Assembly (NCBI GenBank): GCA_001599915.1
Contig: BCIG01000021.1
Coordinates: 62,001-126,000, forward strand
Length of the DNA stretch: 64,000 bases
Direction: 5' to 3'
Source of the DNA: Symbiotaphrina buchneri
Taxonomy: Eukaryota > Ascomycota > Symbiotaphrinales > Symbiotaphrinaceae
Of the stretch, positions 13,864 through 26,929 are shown in pieces (the first letter of the stretch is position 1; each line of letters starts with the position of its first letter). The notes below the pieces were generated by a model. That model did no database searches. It worked only from the letters and a program-made list of their open reading frames with translations, and was not told the origin of the DNA. Position numbers and translations under genes: made by a program.

Positions 13864-16800
13864 CTAAGGGGTAGCTTTGCTCATGCTGATCAGACGTTTG
13901 ACGCCGACCTAGATAATCAGCTCTATTCACTAATAGGTGACCAGGAGACGCCTACCATCCAGTTACCACATTCCTCCATCTTATTCCTGTGGATATCCGT
14001 CTGTATAGCTTGTGCTGCCTCGTAGTTCTTGGCCAGCATAGCTTCAGACAGTTCTACGAGGCTTTGAATAGTATCTGGCTTTAACAGATCCTCATTGTTC
14101 AGGTGGTCGAAGAGGATGTTCAATCGTTTCTCAGTGTCGTTGACTTGGGCCTTGAAGGAATGCGGTGCTTTTGCCTTGACTCGTTGCATCTCCTTGTTGA
14201 GGGTCTCGTAGATTGGGTGAGCATTCGGGGGTATATGAGAGCGGTCACCGGGGGCTGGGCCTTTATTAGTATTACAACATGGTCTTCCTAGAGACTCATG
14301 ACTTACGATATTTTGGTGCCGCGACTGGAGGAGCTGCGGCCTTGCTCGGGTTCGTCGCTGTACTTGGCCTAGATTCTTGTGGAGGTCCCTGTTGTGGAAT
14401 TTGCGGAGGCGATTGAATCTGATTCGGGGCTGAGCCGGGGGGGTAGACGTTGGGCGCAGTTGACAGTGGCACATTTTGATTGTACTGTGCGTTGTACGTG
14501 CTCGACGAGAGCGCTCCTGACCGCGAGCTACCCGACGGCGCTGGTGGTGGCGGCAAAGAGCTTGGCGGAGGGGCTGAAGACGGAATATGCTGAGGCGCTG
14601 GACTGGGGGCATACCGGCTTGAGCGAGGTGGTCCAGAAGGAGGGGCATTATATGGCGAAGCACCCCTTGGGATGGTCGGCACAGAGCTCACCGTACTGCC
14701 GGGGATGGAGCCTGACGGAGGGGGCGGGGCATAAACGTTTGCTGCTGCAGAAGGAGGTCTTTCAGATGGCTGAAACGGTTGACTATAACCAGCCACAGTA
14801 GGAGTGGTCATCCGCGGAGGCGCAGGACCTTTGGGTGGAGGTGGCAAAGGAGGAGTGGCTCTCTGTTGAGTTGAATATGGTGCGCTCGGCGGCGGCGGAG
14901 AAATGATGTTTGGCTGGCTCGGGAAGACGCTCGGCATGCCAGGTGCGACGGCTGGAGTAGTCCTTCTTGATGGAGGAGGCTTGGCTACCATAGGCGTGTC
15001 GTTCCAGTTGGTCATGTTTGTAGCTTTCGAAGGAGGAGGAACCGACGGGGAAGCGTTAAACGATCTCGGAGGAGCCCCTAGCGCTTGCTGTGGATAAGCA
15101 CTGAATCTGTCGGGAGGCGGAGGTACAGTAGATAGCGGTGGCTGAGGTTGCGAGGCCGGGGCATATCCGCCTTGAGAATAAGCGGACGTGCTCGGAGGCC
15201 TATAGACACTTGAGGACTGTGAGAGTTGAGCCGCTGGAGCGTATGGGCTCGTAGGCAGAGGGTTAGAGGACAGTGACACAGGTGGTATAGGCTGATAGCC
15301 ACCAAAAGCCGGTTGAGCCCGTTGTACTGGCCGCGCAGCAGCCAACCCAGGCTGCCTTGCAGCAATGTGGGTGTCGGCTTTTCGAGTCGCCTGTTTGACC
15401 CGGTTCCGAGCAAGCTCGGCCTCTGGGTATTGAGGCGGAAGCAACTCCAGATATTTCTCAGCGACCGCCAGGTGTCCATGAGCAGCCACCACATCTGCAT
15501 ATTCCGTGTACATGTTGTACAGCAAGCCTAACTTCCACCCCGACGACTGTTGACGTTCCGTATCTTCAAACTTGGTCGCCTCCCTGAACACAGTGACTTT
15601 TTCGATGAAGTGCTGCAATGCCTCTGCATGAACTGAAAAGCCCGAAGACCCGTCGGTGGCTTCCAGAGCGTTCCGCTCTTGTTCATGTAACTCGTCGACC
15701 CATATAGAAACAACTTTCTCGAGCTTGGAACCAGCCATATAGCAGAACGCAGCATCCTTCCGGTAATGTCGCGACTCAGTCTTATCTGTACCCTCTTTGA
15801 TTTGGTCTTCCAAGCGTTCACCCAGAGATTCGCACAAGTCCGCGAACTCAGTTTCGTCGGCGTATGTGCATAGGGTAGCCAGCACTTCCTTCCAATCCTT
15901 CAGGTCGGCATTGTGCACAATGTCCCACAAGTTTTTGCCGACAACCGAGGCTAGTAGCCTCAGATAATTTGGCCCCTTTGCTTGTTTCGAGAAGTAGACG
16001 GCTTGCGCCTTCTCGATGCATTTCTGACCTCCACAGATTGCGACCATGAATGCATCCGACATCCTGTCTTCCTCGAGGCAGACATCTAGAGCCTTGTCGA
16101 ACTGTCCCAGAAGTAAAGCCCTTGTAATCCGCCGGTCCGCGTCGGATTCTGAGCCGGTGAATATTTGGAAAGGATTGTTCGTCTTTGCTCCTTTGGTCGC
16201 AGCTAGATCGGATAGAAACGTATCCGCATCTGTATTATTCTCGAAGAAAGCAGAAAGTCGATTGTTCCTGGTTTCGCCCTGAGCTTGTTTTTCATCATGG
16301 TCTTTGTTTCCATTTCCGTTCAATGCAAGATTAGCTACTCCATCAGTAGCTTCCTCGGGTTCGGAGAACCCTAGGGAATCCACCAAAGCCTTCCTCGGAT
16401 TAGCAGCTATCGGAGTTTCTATGACCTCCCAATCCGCTTTTTCGTCGGCGGACTTGGCCTCCGCCTTTCTTGACTCGCAGATGCTTTTGAGGTCACCTGC
16501 AGCAAGTGCCTTTTCAAAGCTTTCTGTGGCGGCTCCGATATTCGTATCGACGACGAAGCTTGATATCTGAATCTTCGATTTTCTGGGTTGTGAATCCGCA
16601 TCTGAACATCCGAAGCTGACAAGTTTGCCACCAAACCCAAACGAAGCTCCCACCGGCCGCTCGAGCCATCTAGGTGCCTTTGGTAAGGAAAACGTAGCAC
16701 CCTGAGGTTGCGTCTGGGCTTTCGCGAAGAAATCTTCGCCATCTAATGCTTGCGCCTGGGAAGCAGTCGAGGCCGCCTCCGGCTTAGTGTTCTGTATTGT

Positions 16801-17969
16801 GTGAACGGCTACCTTTCCGTCGAAGGAAGCGGTGGCAAGCAGACTTGGGTTGTGCGGATTGAACCTTGTCTCAAAAGTCCAGTTTGTGACTATTGGGAAT
16901 TCTCCTAGAGGGACACCAGTTCGAGTGCTCCAACATATTGTCCTATTGTCCTTTCCACAAGAGAGAAGGAGGTCATTGTCGAGAGGGCACCATGAGAGAG
17001 AGAGAACGCCCTGCTCGTGTGCTCGCAATGTCTTTTCCGGTGCATTCGAGTTCCTCAGATCCCACACGAGAATAAGGGGATCCGTATCATGAGGTATCGC
17101 CGTGGCAAGTTTCGTGGGCCTGTCCGGGTCCCATGCGACCGCGCTGACAGCCTTGCGGCCTAGATTGTTAAGAGTTAAGCTCTCCTTCTTGGCCTTAACA
17201 TCCCATACTGTTACGAAACCTCCAGAACTTCCAGTGACGAGTATGTGCGGGACCTTTTTGTTCCAGTCCAGCGCCTCAAAATCATCTGCTCTTGCAGCCA
17301 CATTGCCCAGGCGGAAAGGGTTGGCGACATTGTTCAGGTCGGATATGAAAAGCTAGAAGGACGCAGTTAGCTTGCTGCTGGCCACCAGACGAACTCGCCT
17401 ACCTCTCCCTTGGCTCCGGCGGTGGCAATCAGTTCCGACCTGAAAGGATTGAACTGTAGAGCTTTGATTGCGCCGCTATGCTTCGTTGTCCGCGACATGA
17501 AAGCATCACTGAGGCCGGTCAATAGCTTGAAATCCACAGGGGAGGTGGGACCAACCCAGTGCCATTGATCAGTTTATCTGCGTCCCATAAATCCAGAGCA
17601 CCATTCTCGAGGGCACCTGCAATTATGCCACGCTGATGATCGTTCGTAATCCGTCCCCACGCGATATCGTGGAATCTAAAAACAACCTGGTTAGCTCTAC
17701 ATTTCCAAATGCAACCGCAATGTTTTGGGCGAGTCGATATTGCTGAGATCATTCACTCACCGAGAATCCGTGCTGATGCTTGCGGCTGGCTGCAAATCTA
17801 CCCCTTGTTCGAAGTCATCGAGCGCGAGATTCCATAGTTCCAGTTTGGTCTCGTCAGAAAAATCCGCATCTACTGCCCCAGCCCTGGTACCAGTAGCTAT
17901 AAGAGGGAGTTGAGATCCGGGAGACCATGCGAACGTGGCTGTTCTGTTTATTTTGCGGATGCAGGCCAT
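13864..17969 (-). CDS. SEC31: COPII outer-coat subunit Sec31
   Basis: Six exons (17761-17969, 17556-17675, 17403-17508, 14307-17352, 13956-14260, 13864-13908) give 1,276 residues, the usual length. The N-terminus [19 protein letters not shown] and [13 protein letters not shown] are diagnostic. WD40 repeats follow: [57 protein letters not shown] helical solenoid region begins around [19 protein letters not shown], and a long proline-rich stretch of about 350 residues precedes the conserved C-terminal domain ([20 protein letters not shown]). Sec31 forms with Sec13 the cage around ER-to-Golgi vesicles; the proline-rich part contacts Sec23/Sar1. The last exon adds only 14 residues, [13 protein letters not shown] at the end. 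Confidence 0.96.
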
Positions 17970-18977: not shown

Positions 18978-19223
18978 GTCGATTTTTTACGACTCGTGGT
19001 CTTTATCCTTGCATCATCTGGCGCTTTGGGTGGAACTCTTCTCGGCGAGACTATTTTCATCTGTGGATACTGATTTGGCCATCAATGGGGCGCAACGCAA
19101 TGATTGCTCTGGCGTTATGGACACTAGCATCCATGATTTGAAATATGAATACAAAGTTCTGGAGCCTGCAGTCCTCCTCCAAAGGCCCTGCAAATTTGGG
19201 CTGCATCGAACCTGCTCCAACTT

Positions 19224-19758
19224 TTACTCGACGTTGCCACGCGACCTGGAGAGCCTCAGCTGCTTGTCGACGTAAAATTTCCGGCCGATTGAGTATGCGG
19301 CAGCACCCAGTGCAACACTGTATATATAAGCATTCACGATGTGGTTGTGTTTTCAGAAAGCTGACGTACCCAAGCACAATTCCTATATTTCAAAGGAAAA
19401 GGGAAAGATTAGTACATTGACAGACATTCGTGGCCAATCACTCACCAAGTGGGATCAACTCGGGAGGGATCCGCTTCAGGGTTCTGAGGCGTTGGGAGAT
19501 GGTATGAGCTGCAAGCAGGCGTCAGTCAACGAAAGTCGTCAAAGCCATTGACTCTAGGCCACGACTAATCCACCAAGAAGTAGATAGCCTGGCTCGATGC
19601 GACGGCACGCATACCTCTATGCTCTTCGTCCTATGCAGGTAAAAGGCAACGGGGTCAGTCTTATGCCAGAACAGGTTCGACCGCCGGACACTCACAGGAT
19701 TGGCAGCCATCTGGAAGCGACGGCCAGTCTGGAACTGCAATACACGAGAGGGATACAT
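19224..19758 (-). CDS. NDUFA4/B12D-type (MLRQ) respiratory membrane protein
   Basis: Five exons give 82 residues: 19696-19758, 19615-19630, 19446-19508, 19370-19382 and 19224-19317. The protein starts MYPSRVLQFQTGRRFQMAAN, continues with the fungal signature HTISQRLRTLKRIPPELIPL, has one membrane segment (IVLGVALGAAAYSIG) and ends RKFYVDKQLRLSRSRGNVE. It belongs to the NADH-ubiquinone reductase MLRQ family; the mammalian member NDUFA4 is now regarded as a complex IV subunit. Two internal exons are micro-exons of 16 and 13 nt, each flanked by good GT/AG sites and required for frame. It is divergent from COX12. Short proteins like this are easily missed because no single exon exceeds 32 codons. 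Confidence 0.88.
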
Positions 19759-20275
19759 GTTGGACAGATGTCTGGCACTCCGTTGACTCGGGAGGTGTAT
19801 GTTGGTTTGGCGGGTATGGTGAGTGAGGTAATTGGAGAGGGTTGAGAAGCACGAAGTACGGATACAATAGCCAGGGCGACGATGTTGTGCGGAGCTCGGT
19901 GTACTTTTCGTAGCTAGTACGCAAGTACCGACGGGGTACCCTACCACAGAATACAGCGCAAGTTGGGAAGTAAGCGATACTTCTAGGCTCATTCTGCATT
20001 GTACCTGTACTTCATACCTGTAGGGCCCGCAGCTTGGCAAATGGGAGGGTCACCAGCCTCCGCATGAGCCTCATGTCGTACGAGAGGACGGTGTGGCTGG
20101 TGCCGACTCGTTCCTTGGACCTTACCACCTTGAGGCACGAAGCCGAAAGAACCTCACCTCACCTCACCTCAACACCTCGCCTGTGCCCTCCTCTGCTCTA
20201 CATCACCCACACATCTCCATCTTTGCCATTGGCACACTAGAGCTCCCGTATCTGTTCCGTCTCAACACAGTCAAA
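19759..20275. promoter_or_regulatory. Shared divergent promoter of the NDUFA4-type gene and COX12
   Basis: A 517 bp gap drives two respiratory-chain genes outward. It contains GTACC units near 19910-20020 and a CTCAC pentamer repeat at 20154-20172 just before the COX12 leader. Co-regulation through this region is inference from the arrangement. Confidence 0.55.
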
Positions 20276-20926
20276 ATGGCCGACGACGAGGAACGTGTGA
20301 CTATGCCCTTCAAGTTCGTCACTGGTCAGTCTTCCGCCCTAACCCTTCTTGCTGTCCTTCAACAACTGACCTAAAACGTCATGCTTTCTAGCTGGTACGT
20401 CCTAGCCCACCACACATCAGAAATCCTACGCTGAGCCAGCGACCGGATCCCAATGACTTCTTCCTTCGGCGGCGCACTGCCTTCCGCACCGTTTCCAGTA
20501 CTCACCGTGCCCTGTGATTTTAGGCTTCGACGCCCGCTTTCCCAATCAGAACCAGTCAGTAATGTCTATCGAGACTGAACCTAGACAACACCATTGACTT
20601 GAATATCAAGGACCAAGCATTGCTGGCAGAATTACGTCGATTACCACAAGTGTATTCTGGCAAAAGGGGAGGATTTCAAACCCTGCAAACAAGTATGATC
20701 CCGTAGCCCTTACTCGACCAAGGGTCGTCTGACATCCTCAACCTAGTTTTTCCTTGCGTATCGTTCACTTTGCCCCAGTTCATGGGTAGAAAGGTGGGAT
20801 GAGCAAAGAGGTGCGTAGACATCGGTGCAACGTCACCTCCACTACCCGCCTAGGTACCATCTTGACCATCAGTCTAATTGCTTCCATGCAGAGAACGGAA
20901 CCTTCCCGGTCCGCCTGGACCAATAG
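20276..20926 (+). CDS. COX12: Cytochrome c oxidase subunit VIb (Cox12)
   Basis: Six exons give 87 residues: 20276-20324, 20392-20394, 20524-20554, 20611-20692, 20747-20810 and 20892-20926. The protein has the twin-cysteine helical hairpin: CWQNYVDYHKC is C-x9-C and CKQFFLAYRSLC is C-x10-C, as expected for Cox12/COX6B. Around them are GFDARFPNQNQTKH and WVERWDEQR. It is an intermembrane-space subunit of complex IV imported by the Mia40 route. The second exon is only 3 nt (CTG), preceded by TTTCTAG and followed by GTACGT. Including it changes VTGFDARF to VTAGFDARF, the form I recall for other filamentous fungi. Skipping it keeps the frame. Confidence 0.93.
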
Positions 20927-21254
20927 AGGAACATGTCGAATGGCTGAGAGGGCAGTTCGTACGATCCTCTCCCGACGGGGAGATTAGAACCTTGTGGGCT
21001 GTAGCAATAAAGTTATATTGCATGTATACAGATGCTTCCCTCTATGCAACATGCATGGTCAAGGACCGGTGAACGATACCTTGGCTGTGGTCCGCATACT
21101 CTCACTTGGACAAGCGTTGTTCTTTGGGACCAGACGTAGTATATCTACTGCCACATTTACAGTGCATAAAAGTACCGAACTCAATCTCAGCCATGGCGTT
21201 CCGGATGCAGGAACCCGGGAAAAGACATGCTCGGCCAACCTTACATAGCATCCA
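20927..21254. other. Convergent 3' gap COX12 / sphingosine-phosphate lyase
   Basis: A 328 bp convergent gap holding both 3' untranslated regions. I see no coding signal. Confidence 0.5.
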
Positions 21255-23129
21255 CTATGCTTTGTATAAAGTATCCAAGAATCCAGACGCTAGATCGACG
21301 ACGATGCTCTTGTTAGGCAGACTCCCAGCCACTCCATACAAGCTAGCGGCATCACCCCTCTCTCCCGCCTTCCTACCCTTCCCCTCAGCAAGCATTATCC
21401 GCTCCTTCTCACGTTCGGCCTCCACAACTGCCCTGAGATCCTCCAATAATTTGTCACATGCGGCAACGATTGGCATTGTCACCGCAACGTGGATGGCTGG
21501 AGGGTCTTGAAGCGCGTTAAGATGCCAGCCCTTGGCGCTCATGCCGTCAGCAATGTCGTAAGGGTCTAAGCTTGTAGAGGTGAAGGCGACCACGCTCACT
21601 AAGGGTCTCCCGATCACTTGGAGATCCGATGAGAGCGACGGGTCTTCCCTGACGGTAGACTCGATCTTTTTGGCGGTACCAACGATGGAGTGGCAAGCAG
21701 CGACGTAACCACTCTCGCCTTGCGCCATCAAGCTGGCCCAACAGCCTGCAATCAGGGCCCCAGGTCTGGAGCCAGCAATGCTAGGGGAGGCATATACCCC
21801 ACCCGACCAGTCCGGACATATAAAGTATTGATATGAGCGTAACTGCTGACTGCGGTACAGAATGGTGGAGTTTCCTTTCGGAGCGAATCCGTACTTGTGC
21901 GTATCGCAACTGATGCTGGTAACGCCCTTCAGCCTGAAGTCAAAAGGCTCACTAGGGAAGCCAGCTTTTTCGAGGAATGGTATCATGAACGACCCAAGGC
22001 AACAATCCACATGCAAAGGAATCTTTCTGCGAGCTGCGAGTCGGGAGAGACCAGATATATCATCAATGATGCCATGGGGGAAATTGGGCGCGGATCCGAC
22101 TAAAAGCACCGTATTCGAATTGATGAGGCGAGACACGGACCGTAAATCCACCTTGTATTCCGGAGCGGGACATTTGACGAGGTGCATGCGAATCTTGAAA
22201 TAAGAACAGGCCTTACGAAAAGCTGTATGTGCGGTTTCAGGTAAGATCCTTAAGGCAGTTGTCAGTAGAGCCTTCGCACCGAAAAGTAGATGAAAGAAGC
22301 CCACATCTCTGGTTCCGTTACACGACGTTCAATGTACGCCTTCTGCCGTGCGCTGAGGCAAGCCATGAGAATGGACTCCGTGCCTCCGCTGGTTGTGACG
22401 CCTGCTGCGCCATTCGGGGCGTTGAACAAGGCAAGCACCTATGAAGACCTCGGTCAATGAGGTCCCAAGAAGATCAGTGGTAAAGCCGCGCACACACCAT
22501 AGCAACAATCTCCGCCTCCATCTTCCTCACCCCGGGAAAGACGTCCGGATGGATAGGGTTCGCCACAGTAAACTTCCCAAACGCTTCAGTCTGGAGTTTG
22601 ACTAGGTCTTCGCCACCGTGATAAACCGCTCCACTGACATAGCCATCTTCCCACCTCGTGTGGTCCATCTGACTGAGGTTGTCAAGCTCCGCTCGAACCT
22701 GCTCCGACGTCCATCCCTCCTTTGGAAGGGTCAGGTAGCGGTTGATGCCTGGACCGGTGGGTACGAGCTTGCCCTCCAGCTTTGCTAAGCTCTCCGTGAT
22801 TTGTTTCTGCACTTGTTTGCGCACGCCTGGAATGCGTAGGAAAAGCCCATATGATATCCTTCTGACAGCCATGTATGCGTCTATCGCCGTCCCGATAAGG
22901 CCGCGGCCCTTGAGTTTGAGCAAACATTTGCGACCCCAGCGCAGTACAAAGAGAATGAAGATCACATTGCGCAACCTAGTGCGAATTAGTCGTTGATTTC
23001 GATACATGAAGTTAGTGCATGAAGGTACGATGCAACGCACAAGTCAATATTCAGGAGCAGCTTCCTGGAGGTGGTTCTGGCATTTTGGGCGATAAAGCCA
23101 TTCGGGAACGAGAGCGGCCCCGGAGCCAT
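21255..23129 (-). CDS. DPL1: Sphingosine-1-phosphate lyase
   Basis: Four exons, 23041-23129, 22498-22975, 22305-22438 and 21255-22248, give 564 residues. This PLP enzyme of the ER membrane splits long-chain base phosphates, the exit step of sphingolipid breakdown. The N-terminus MAPGPLSFPNGFIAQNARTT is followed by a membrane segment (LRNVIFILFVLRW). The catalytic region has YVSGAVYHGGEDL, GAAGVTTSGGTESILMACL (cofactor pocket), PLHVDCCLGSFMIPFLEKAG and the PLP lysine motif SCDTHKYGFAPKG. Introns are short; the third (22249-22304) has an atypical GTGGGC donor, but skipping it joins TEPEM to ILPETAHTAFRKA in frame, as the family requires. Exon 1 is found only by splicing; the first long ORF begins inside the intron. 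Confidence 0.93.
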
Positions 23130-24682: not shown

Positions 24683-26929
24683 ATGGACGACGCTGCGAGC
24701 GTCACCGTGAAGCTGGCCGAACTGCTCAGGCACCCTGAAGATCTGGAAAAGATCCCGGCCCTCAAGTCGGAGTTCACCAGGAAGAAAGCTGCGGTGGACG
24801 CCCAGCTCAAGCTCGGCCTAAGAGAGCAGTCCGATCTTACCAAGGCAGGTATCAGCTCCATCACCAATGGACAAATGACAGTCGAAGCTATCAAAGAAGA
24901 GATGAAGAGGATTGATCGGCTCTGCGCGGAGGCTCAAAGTATGATCCGCGACTTTCCTCACATCAACCTGGTCGCTCAGACGCATCGCAACTTCTCCCAG
25001 GTGGAGGCGATGAAATCCAATCTAGACGCTTTCAATGATCGACTTGCTGCCGTTGAGAACCTGCTGCGCGAGGATGACATGGATCTCGAGAATCTGCCCA
25101 ACCTTCTCCCAGTCCACTTCGAATTGACTCAACTACGCAATATCCGGGACGACGCGATGGACCAGATCAGAAGGGCCGCTGATAAGTCCCTTGAACATAC
25201 CTTGGAAGAGTACTTCTCGCGCCTGGACGATGTCATCAGCTGGTTTGATGACCACGTTGGTAATGCTTGCATGAATCTGCTTCCCCTGGTTCAGGCCGAC
25301 AACCGGGGGACTGTCGTCCGTCTAGCATTGGTGATTGAGGAGGAGGAGAGCAATGACAAGAAGGTGAAGGCTTTACAAGAAGCACAGAAGGATTACACCG
25401 ACCTTGCTTCCCGCTTTCGGTTCGTGGGGTCCGGTCCAAAGCAATTGCGCGGTTATAAGGAGAAGTTTCTGCAATGCATCAAGGCAACTGCTGAGGCACA
25501 GATGAAGGGCAGCGAGGAACAGTTTCTCGAAGACCCTGACAAGTTGGAGAAAAGCCTGAAATGGTTTTTCAATGACCTTTATACGGTCAAGATCGGTATG
25601 GCGGGCTTGATGCCCGGGAAATGGAAGATATTGAAGACATATGGAGATATATATCACAAGCTCATGCACGACTGGCTTGTCAGATTGATCGACGACCCGG
25701 AGTTAAAGCCAGCTCACATGCTAGCGATCATACATTGGGGTCAGAAGTATTACGCAAAGATGGAGAAGCTAGGGTTCCCTTACTCATCATTGCAACCGCA
25801 ACTCATAGACGACCGCGAAGGCGAACTCGTGCGTGAATGGCGTCAACTTATCATCAAGTTCCTGAACGAATGGATCGATCGCATGTTAGCTAGCGATCAC
25901 AAAGCTTTCATCGAGCGGCAGTCGGATGCACTGGACAACGATGAAAATGGTTATTTCCGGACCAAGACTCTAGGCGATATGTGGCGGATGCTTCGTGAAC
26001 AGACTATAGCTGCTGGAAATTCGGATCGGCCGGATGTTACAGAAGGAGTTATTGATGCTATGTTCCTTGTCTTGAAATCTCGACAGACTATGTGGCAAAG
26101 ATGGGTTGCTGAAGAAGCTATGCGCTATGCCAGCCCTCAGAGCGATCAAGAGGGACTGCAGGTTCTTCAAGACTGGCTTATAGCCATTGCGAATGACCAG
26201 ATTGCCTGCATAGACGACAACGAACAGACAGACCAGTGGGGTTACCTCACACGTTTCAGACGAGATTTCGAGCCTCTTGTATCGCCAAAATACATGTTGC
26301 ATGCAAATGTTGAGCTCGACAAGCTCCGAGACGGTTATGTGGACCTCGGGACGCATTGTATCAGCACCTTTGTCAGCCTCGTATTTGCTGTTGACTTCCG
26401 CTCTGTTCTCCCCGAGTTTTTCACTTCAAGATGGTATTCCGAGTACGGTATGAAACGAATAACATCAACATTCGAAGATTATATCGGTGATTATTCTGAG
26501 GTGCTCCATCACAGCTTGGTGGACATCCTCATCGAGGAATTAGCCGATACACTTCTTATTCGCTATCTACAATGCGTTCGCAATAGAGGGGCGAAGTTCA
26601 AACGAGTTGATCCCTTCAATGAAAAGTTCAAAGACGACGTGATCACAGCCTTCGCCTTTTTCCAAAAGTTTCCGGAATTCCCTGCAATCAAGCAAAAGTG
26701 GCGGGTTGTGGACGGACTTGTGCGGCTGTTAGAAGCTGATAGAAGCAATGTTCCTGCGGTGTACGAGACTTTCAAGAGGGAGTATTGGGACACCCAGTTG
26801 AACTGGGTAGAAGCTGTCCTCAGGGCAAGAGACGATTTTGATCGAAACATGCTGAGTGCTGTGAAAGCCAAGGCAGCTGAGATGTCGGTCGAGAGGGGTC
26901 CCGACACGATAATGGGTAAGGTCAAGTGA
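24683..26929 (+). CDS. SEC6: Exocyst complex subunit Sec6
   Basis: Intronless frame of 748 residues, the normal length. The N-terminal coiled coil (VTVKLAELLRHPEDLEKI; IREMI-like segment SMIRDFPHINLVAQTHRNF) is typical, followed by LRNIRDDAMDQIRRA and the long helical-bundle region with DVISWFDDHVGNACMNLLP and MPGKWKILKTYGDIYHKLMH. The C-terminal Sec6 domain includes GDYSEVLHHSLVDILIEELA and FREYWD-like KREYWDTQLNWVEAVLRARDD. Sec6 is a core exocyst subunit tethering secretory vesicles at the hyphal tip. The absence of introns over 2.2 kb contrasts with its intron-rich neighbours. Confidence 0.96.
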   Translation: MDDAASVTVKLAELLRHPEDLEKIPALKSEFTRKKAAVDAQLKLGLREQSDLTKAGISSITNGQMTVEAIKEEMKRIDRLCAEAQSMIRDFPHINLVAQTHRNFSQVEAMKSNLDAFNDRLAAVENLLREDDMDLENLPNLLPVHFELTQLRNIRDDAMDQIRRAADKSLEHTLEEYFSRLDDVISWFDDHVGNACMNLLPLVQADNRGTVVRLALVIEEEESNDKKVKALQEAQKDYTDLASRFRFVGSGPKQLRGYKEKFLQCIKATAEAQMKGSEEQFLEDPDKLEKSLKWFFNDLYTVKIGMAGLMPGKWKILKTYGDIYHKLMHDWLVRLIDDPELKPAHMLAIIHWGQKYYAKMEKLGFPYSSLQPQLIDDREGELVREWRQLIIKFLNEWIDRMLASDHKAFIERQSDALDNDENGYFRTKTLGDMWRMLREQTIAAGNSDRPDVTEGVIDAMFLVLKSRQTMWQRWVAEEAMRYASPQSDQEGLQVLQDWLIAIANDQIACIDDNEQTDQWGYLTRFRRDFEPLVSPKYMLHANVELDKLRDGYVDLGTHCISTFVSLVFAVDFRSVLPEFFTSRWYSEYGMKRITSTFEDYIGDYSEVLHHSLVDILIEELADTLLIRYLQCVRNRGAKFKRVDPFNEKFKDDVITAFAFFQKFPEFPAIKQKWRVVDGLVRLLEADRSNVPAVYETFKREYWDTQLNWVEAVLRARDDFDRNMLSAVKAKAAEMSVERGPDTIMGKVK

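Follow-up and report, generated by a model that had tools for sequence, protein, structure and literature searches.

A predicted 3-nt micro-exon in the COX12 gene of the ascomycete Symbiotaphrina buchneri

The first intervening sequence of the Symbiotaphrina buchneri COX12 gene very probably consists, judging from the DNA and its homologues, of two short U2-type introns parted by a constitutive exon of 3 nt. The gene lies in a 64,000-nt stretch of DNA (hereafter the window) from a genome of 23.4 Mb in 82 contigs. An earlier note on this stretch had proposed that CTG at 20392-20394 is a micro-exon, and the proposal held: among the GT-AG solutions tried, this one alone restores a residue present in every homologue alignment printed there. 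The gene model, in window coordinates, is as follows.

20276-20926, + strand: COX12/COX6B gene, ATG at 20276 to stop at 20926, six exons
20276-20324, + strand: exon 1, coding part (MADDEERVTMPFKFVT + G), ending in phase 1 at ACTG/GTCAGT
20325-20391, + strand: intron 1, 67 nt, GTCAGT...CTGAC (20366-20370)...TTTCTAG
20392-20394, + strand: putative micro-exon CTG, 3 nt, from splice enumeration and homology
20395-20523, + strand: intron 2, 129 nt, GTACGT...TACTCAC (20499-20505, candidate branch site by eye)...TTTTAG
20524-20554, + strand: exon 3, 31 nt, Gly codon end, FDARFPNQN, CA
20555-20610, + strand: intron 3, 56 nt, AAG acceptor
20611-20692, + strand: exon 4, 82 nt, from the genome protein search and the gene model
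20693-20746, + strand: intron 4, 54 nt, from the gene model
20747-20810, + strand: exon 5, 64 nt, from the genome protein search and the gene model
20811-20891, + strand: intron 5, 81 nt, from the gene model and enumeration
20892-20926, + strand: exon 6, 35 nt with the stop codon, from the gene model and enumeration

The 87-aa product belongs to the COX6B family (Pfam PF02297: 92.7 bits, cut-off 26). Residues C32, C42, C53 and C64 are invariant in a five-sequence alignment and form the CX9C and CX10C pairs that we take to be the COX12/COX6B motif; NCBIfam yielded no family for COX12. Among the best candidates scored, a whole-genome protein search (E value up to 10) returned three pieces, all at the COX12 locus. 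The coding sequence of 264 nt is cut by five introns into exons of 49 (coding part), 3, 31, 82, 64 and 35 nt. For intron 3, homologous length was obtained from 20555-20610 only, out of three GT-AG solutions; its acceptor seems to be AAG in place of YAG, CAAG being common to all three.

Introns 1 and 2 are both in phase 1, and the CT of the micro-exon completes G/CT (GCT, Ala) while its G starts the following Gly codon G/GC (GGC). The spliced sequence thus reads GTCACTG-CTG-GCTTCGAC with the micro-exon and GTCACTG-GCTTCGAC without it. Splice enumeration reproduced both peptides given in the earlier note, VTAGFDARF on inclusion and VTGFDARF on removal of a single 199-nt intron, and its further statement that both forms are in frame, with the skipped one a residue shorter, was borne out by products of 87 and 86 aa that are each open to the stop codon. 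Lying between introns predicted at 67 and 129 nt, the 3 nt fall in the size class of an internal micro-exon (3-30 nt, with an intron on either side). Intron retention was discarded, since translation then stops early, after 32 aa when intron 1 or both introns are kept and after 20 aa when intron 2 is kept.

How many ways there are of splicing this stretch was assessed by enumeration within 20276-20554, using GT-AG single excisions of at least 40 nt with donors from 20306 on, followed by second excisions under the same limits after each first one (644 two-step combinations, nested ones included). Proteins that start with MADDEER and end with GFDARFPNQN were kept, two-step products also having to be free of stop codons. 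This left 19 distinct proteins, one of 26 residues (the skipped form), one of 27 (the micro-exon form) and the next of 32. Exactly one solution tried places one residue between VT and GFDARFPNQN, namely exons 20276-20324, 20392-20394 and 20524-20554. No one-residue solution came from single introns whose GT or GC donor lies at 20296-20355.

The same enumeration bears on two other readings. One is a single 199-nt intron (20325-20523) removed in one step, with the inner AG-CTG-GT arising by chance; its product keeps the reading frame up to the stop codon, and it is the sole solution found that lacks the extra residue. The other is a stwintron, in which nested introns are cut out in two steps and no exon lies between them. 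Stwintrons occur in Pezizomycotina and likewise need consecutive U2 splicing, according to passages of PMC6616335, but no two-step solution tried yields the 87-aa protein unless CTG serves as an exon, and a nested reading could yield the skipped product only. Among the solutions tried, none in which an inner intron lies within a splice element of an outer one, with no exon left between them, gives the full-length homologous protein, and we regard a stwintron here as barely credible.

Homologues separate the micro-exon form from the product of the 199-nt intron. Both protein forms were searched against the PDB, and each matched 25 distinct sequences. The form with Ala scores higher in 21/21 chains spanning the site, each of which is named COX12 or COX6B and which are not independent of one another, by 0.9-5.0 bits (for example, 136.2 vs 131.2, 99.3 vs 94.3 and 95.7 vs 91.8); the gain is small, 0.9 to 1.8 bits, in the five budding-yeast-type chains. 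As a control, scores shift by at most 0.2 bits for the four matches that begin past the site, three of them COA6 chains and the fourth 9fq7, which is named COX6B. Pfam COX6B gives both forms the same 92.7 bits and cannot tell them apart, because the domain starts at residue 21, beyond the residue in question.

The alignments agree with the scores. With Ala, all five printed alignments are gap-free; of the five printed without it, those to 8c8q and 6giq open a gap, that to 8ucj starts later, and those to 6hu9 and 6ymx, both budding-yeast-type chains, stay gap-free but pair VT with TV as mismatches. At the site, homologues read T-V-G-F-D (chains named COX12), T-A-P-F-D (bovine) and T-A-P-A-D (7jro, presumably a plant chain), and wherever a printed alignment spans the site, one residue, Ala or Val, fills the interval from Thr to Gly/Pro. 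We know of no filamentous fungus among the matched PDB chains. Two scans of bacterial and archaeal contigs gave 16 and 45 stretches with a pattern match and two of viral contigs gave 1 and 27, and none was confirmed as an encoding relative. The 199-nt intron would drop the residue that the covering PDB homologues possess; it would also oblige the spliceosome to ignore an inner acceptor and an inner donor that are both competent, each forming a shorter intron. Together with the rarity of such sites, considered below, this makes one-step removal quite unlikely.

The inner splice sites were scored against a rough yardstick of 85 introns predicted in this genome by a second intron finder (an earlier finder had yielded 12 only), a noisy set in which the donor, YAG and branch-site patterns are partly imposed. 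It holds no + strand intron at 19000-22000 of the window and therefore no COX12 intron. Against this set, donor 1 (GTCAGT) scores 6.41 (25th percentile 6.1), acceptor 1 (TTTCTAG) 5.25 (25th percentile 4.9, median 5.8) and donor 2 (GTACGT, at 20395) 7.2 (median 7.1), so that TTTCTAG/CTG/GTACGT lies within the range of the rough predicted introns. The signals named in the earlier note, CTGAC, TTTCTAG and GTACGT, are all present, but its word for the donor was too generous: GTACGT is an ordinary donor rather than a perfect one. TTTCTAG is usable and falls between the 25th and 50th percentiles. Acceptor 2 (TTTTAG) scores 2.98, under the 5th percentile of 3.6; this weakness does not discriminate between the readings because the single 199-nt intron uses the same acceptor. 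The A of the branch-like CTGAC lies 22 nt upstream of the final base of intron 1. Intron 2 contains no YTRAY branch site in its 129 nt; TACTCAC, picked out by eye as the best candidate, is one base from TACTAAC and has its A 19 nt upstream of the final intron base.

We then asked how often such an arrangement would occur by chance, using 40,000 sampled 199-nt windows from both strands of 264 kb of the genome; those that overlapped the site were passed over, though the denominator still counts them. By criteria chosen after the site had been seen, AGnnnGT with at least 45 nt on each side occurs in 32% of these genomic windows, falling to 2.5% when YAG and a donor-like hexamer are added (0.25% with the codon condition) and to 0.52% for YAG, a donor-like hexamer and an upstream branch site. 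YAG, donor, branch site and codons for Ala/Val then Gly coincide in 0.10% of windows (~1 in 970); when the intron was shuffled 40,000 times, the same combination appeared in 0.028% of the shuffled sequences. Summed splice-site scores equalled or exceeded the observed one in 0.23% of genomic windows and 0.105% of the shuffled sequences. An inner site with suitable codons would therefore have to be credited to chance at about 0.1% were the 199-nt intron correct. Within COX12 itself, introns 3-5 contain no AGnnnGT with at least 25 nt on each side.

Short introns and intron definition are the default in Ascomycota, as stated in passages of PMC6616335. On the micro-exon reading, introns 1 and 2 would each be paired across themselves, and such pairing would set no minimum on exon size. 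Splice sites 3 nt apart are probably not occupied at once, and hence we infer that the introns leave sequentially. The micro-exon is probably included in the mRNA, and constitutively. Were intron 1 removed first, the intermediate would read ...ACTGCTG/GTACGT, with an ordinary donor; were intron 2 removed first, intron 1 would then end TTTCTAG/CTGGC. Either order would give VTAGFDARF.

Constitutive use has to be weighed against the possibility that the micro-exon is a regulated cassette, with the 87-aa and 86-aa forms both made in a ratio that shifts with condition. A length divisible by three and two open forms would suit a cassette, and there are fungal precedents: a regulated 20-nt micro-exon in Trichoderma virens, as described in part of PMC11121469, and 3-bp alternatively spliced micro-exons in Tuber melanosporum, as described in part of PMC10197012. 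Against this, the residue directly precedes the conserved FDARFPNQNQT, and ordinary splice sites with short introns favour constitutive intron definition; we consider a cassette unlikely. It is very doubtful that the micro-exon acts as a switch between two COX12 forms one residue apart through which splicing tunes respiration in this fungus. The skipped isoform is unsupported, its compatible frame being the one point in its favour.

If the constitutive reading is right, COX12 adds another example to the 3-nt exons already known in fungi and animals. Among the closest in kind, from the portions of the sources available (PMC10197012, PMC4986451 and PMC3689799), are the 3-bp alternatively spliced micro-exons of the NLR (NACHT-ankyrin) genes of Tuber melanosporum, credited to Iotti et al. 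2012: like that of COX12 they are codon-sized and found in a filamentous ascomycete, whereas they are many, alternatively spliced and located in receptor genes, and that of COX12 stands alone, is probably constitutive and belongs to a conserved gene of respiration. The duplicated lipS genes of Dactylellina haptotyla are reported to contain two 3-nt exons (PMC5639578, in part); these fungal exons too lie outside the immune receptors, though in a different gene. The 3-nt micro-exons of Drosophila homothorax and troponin T and of mouse and rat NCAM (PMC7392893 and PMC8042270, in part) resemble that of COX12 in being internal and in frame, but are alternatively spliced as described there, unlike the constitutive exon proposed here. 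Stwintrons of Pezizomycotina, as set out in passages of PMC6616335, share with the COX12 pair consecutive short U2 introns and stepwise removal by intron definition; they differ in that one intron sits inside a splice element of its partner with no exon between, while the COX12 pair is predicted to have one.

At the lower end of exon size, the basidiomycete Phanerochaete chrysosporium is reported to have P450 genes with exons as short as 6 bp (PMC1184071), and plants to have exons of 1 nt (PMC8831610). Passages of a 2024 paper state that, before its own 20-nt case, functional micro-exons were undescribed in filamentous fungi and that fungal micro-exons had previously been tested in Schizosaccharomyces pombe only (PMC11121469). 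Among the matches listed in our literature search, with most subscription journals outside its scope, there was no report of a micro-exon in COX12, and COX12 peptide strings gave no match in a literature text search. In plants, exons this short are often overlooked in annotation, as noted in part of PMC8831610, so the annotated COX12 of this fungus may well lack one residue, and those of orthologues may too. A 3-nt exon that is probably constitutive, in a small conserved gene, would make a clean natural substrate for studying how the spliceosome copes, under intron definition, with a pair of splice sites separated by 3 nt.

The end of exon 1 (20322-20326) and the micro-exon (20392-20396) both read CTG/GT. 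This would fit an origin of the micro-exon through a short duplication of the donor, for which the shared sequence is weak evidence because the identity is so short.

Several other genes were seen in the window. Downstream of COX12, on the - strand at 21255-22328, lies an ORF of the pyridoxal-dependent decarboxylase type (PF00282, 36.4 bits), which we take to resemble sphingosine-1-phosphate lyase; 24683-26929 on the + strand encodes the exocyst subunit Sec6 (PF06046, 551.8 bits), and a long - strand ORF at 14296-17301 has WD40-type matches within its first 182 residues. Elsewhere in the genome, the COX6B family search gave one further match, on contig 6 (184430-184606, 60.3 bits), which by eye looks like a protein similar to the assembly factor COA6.
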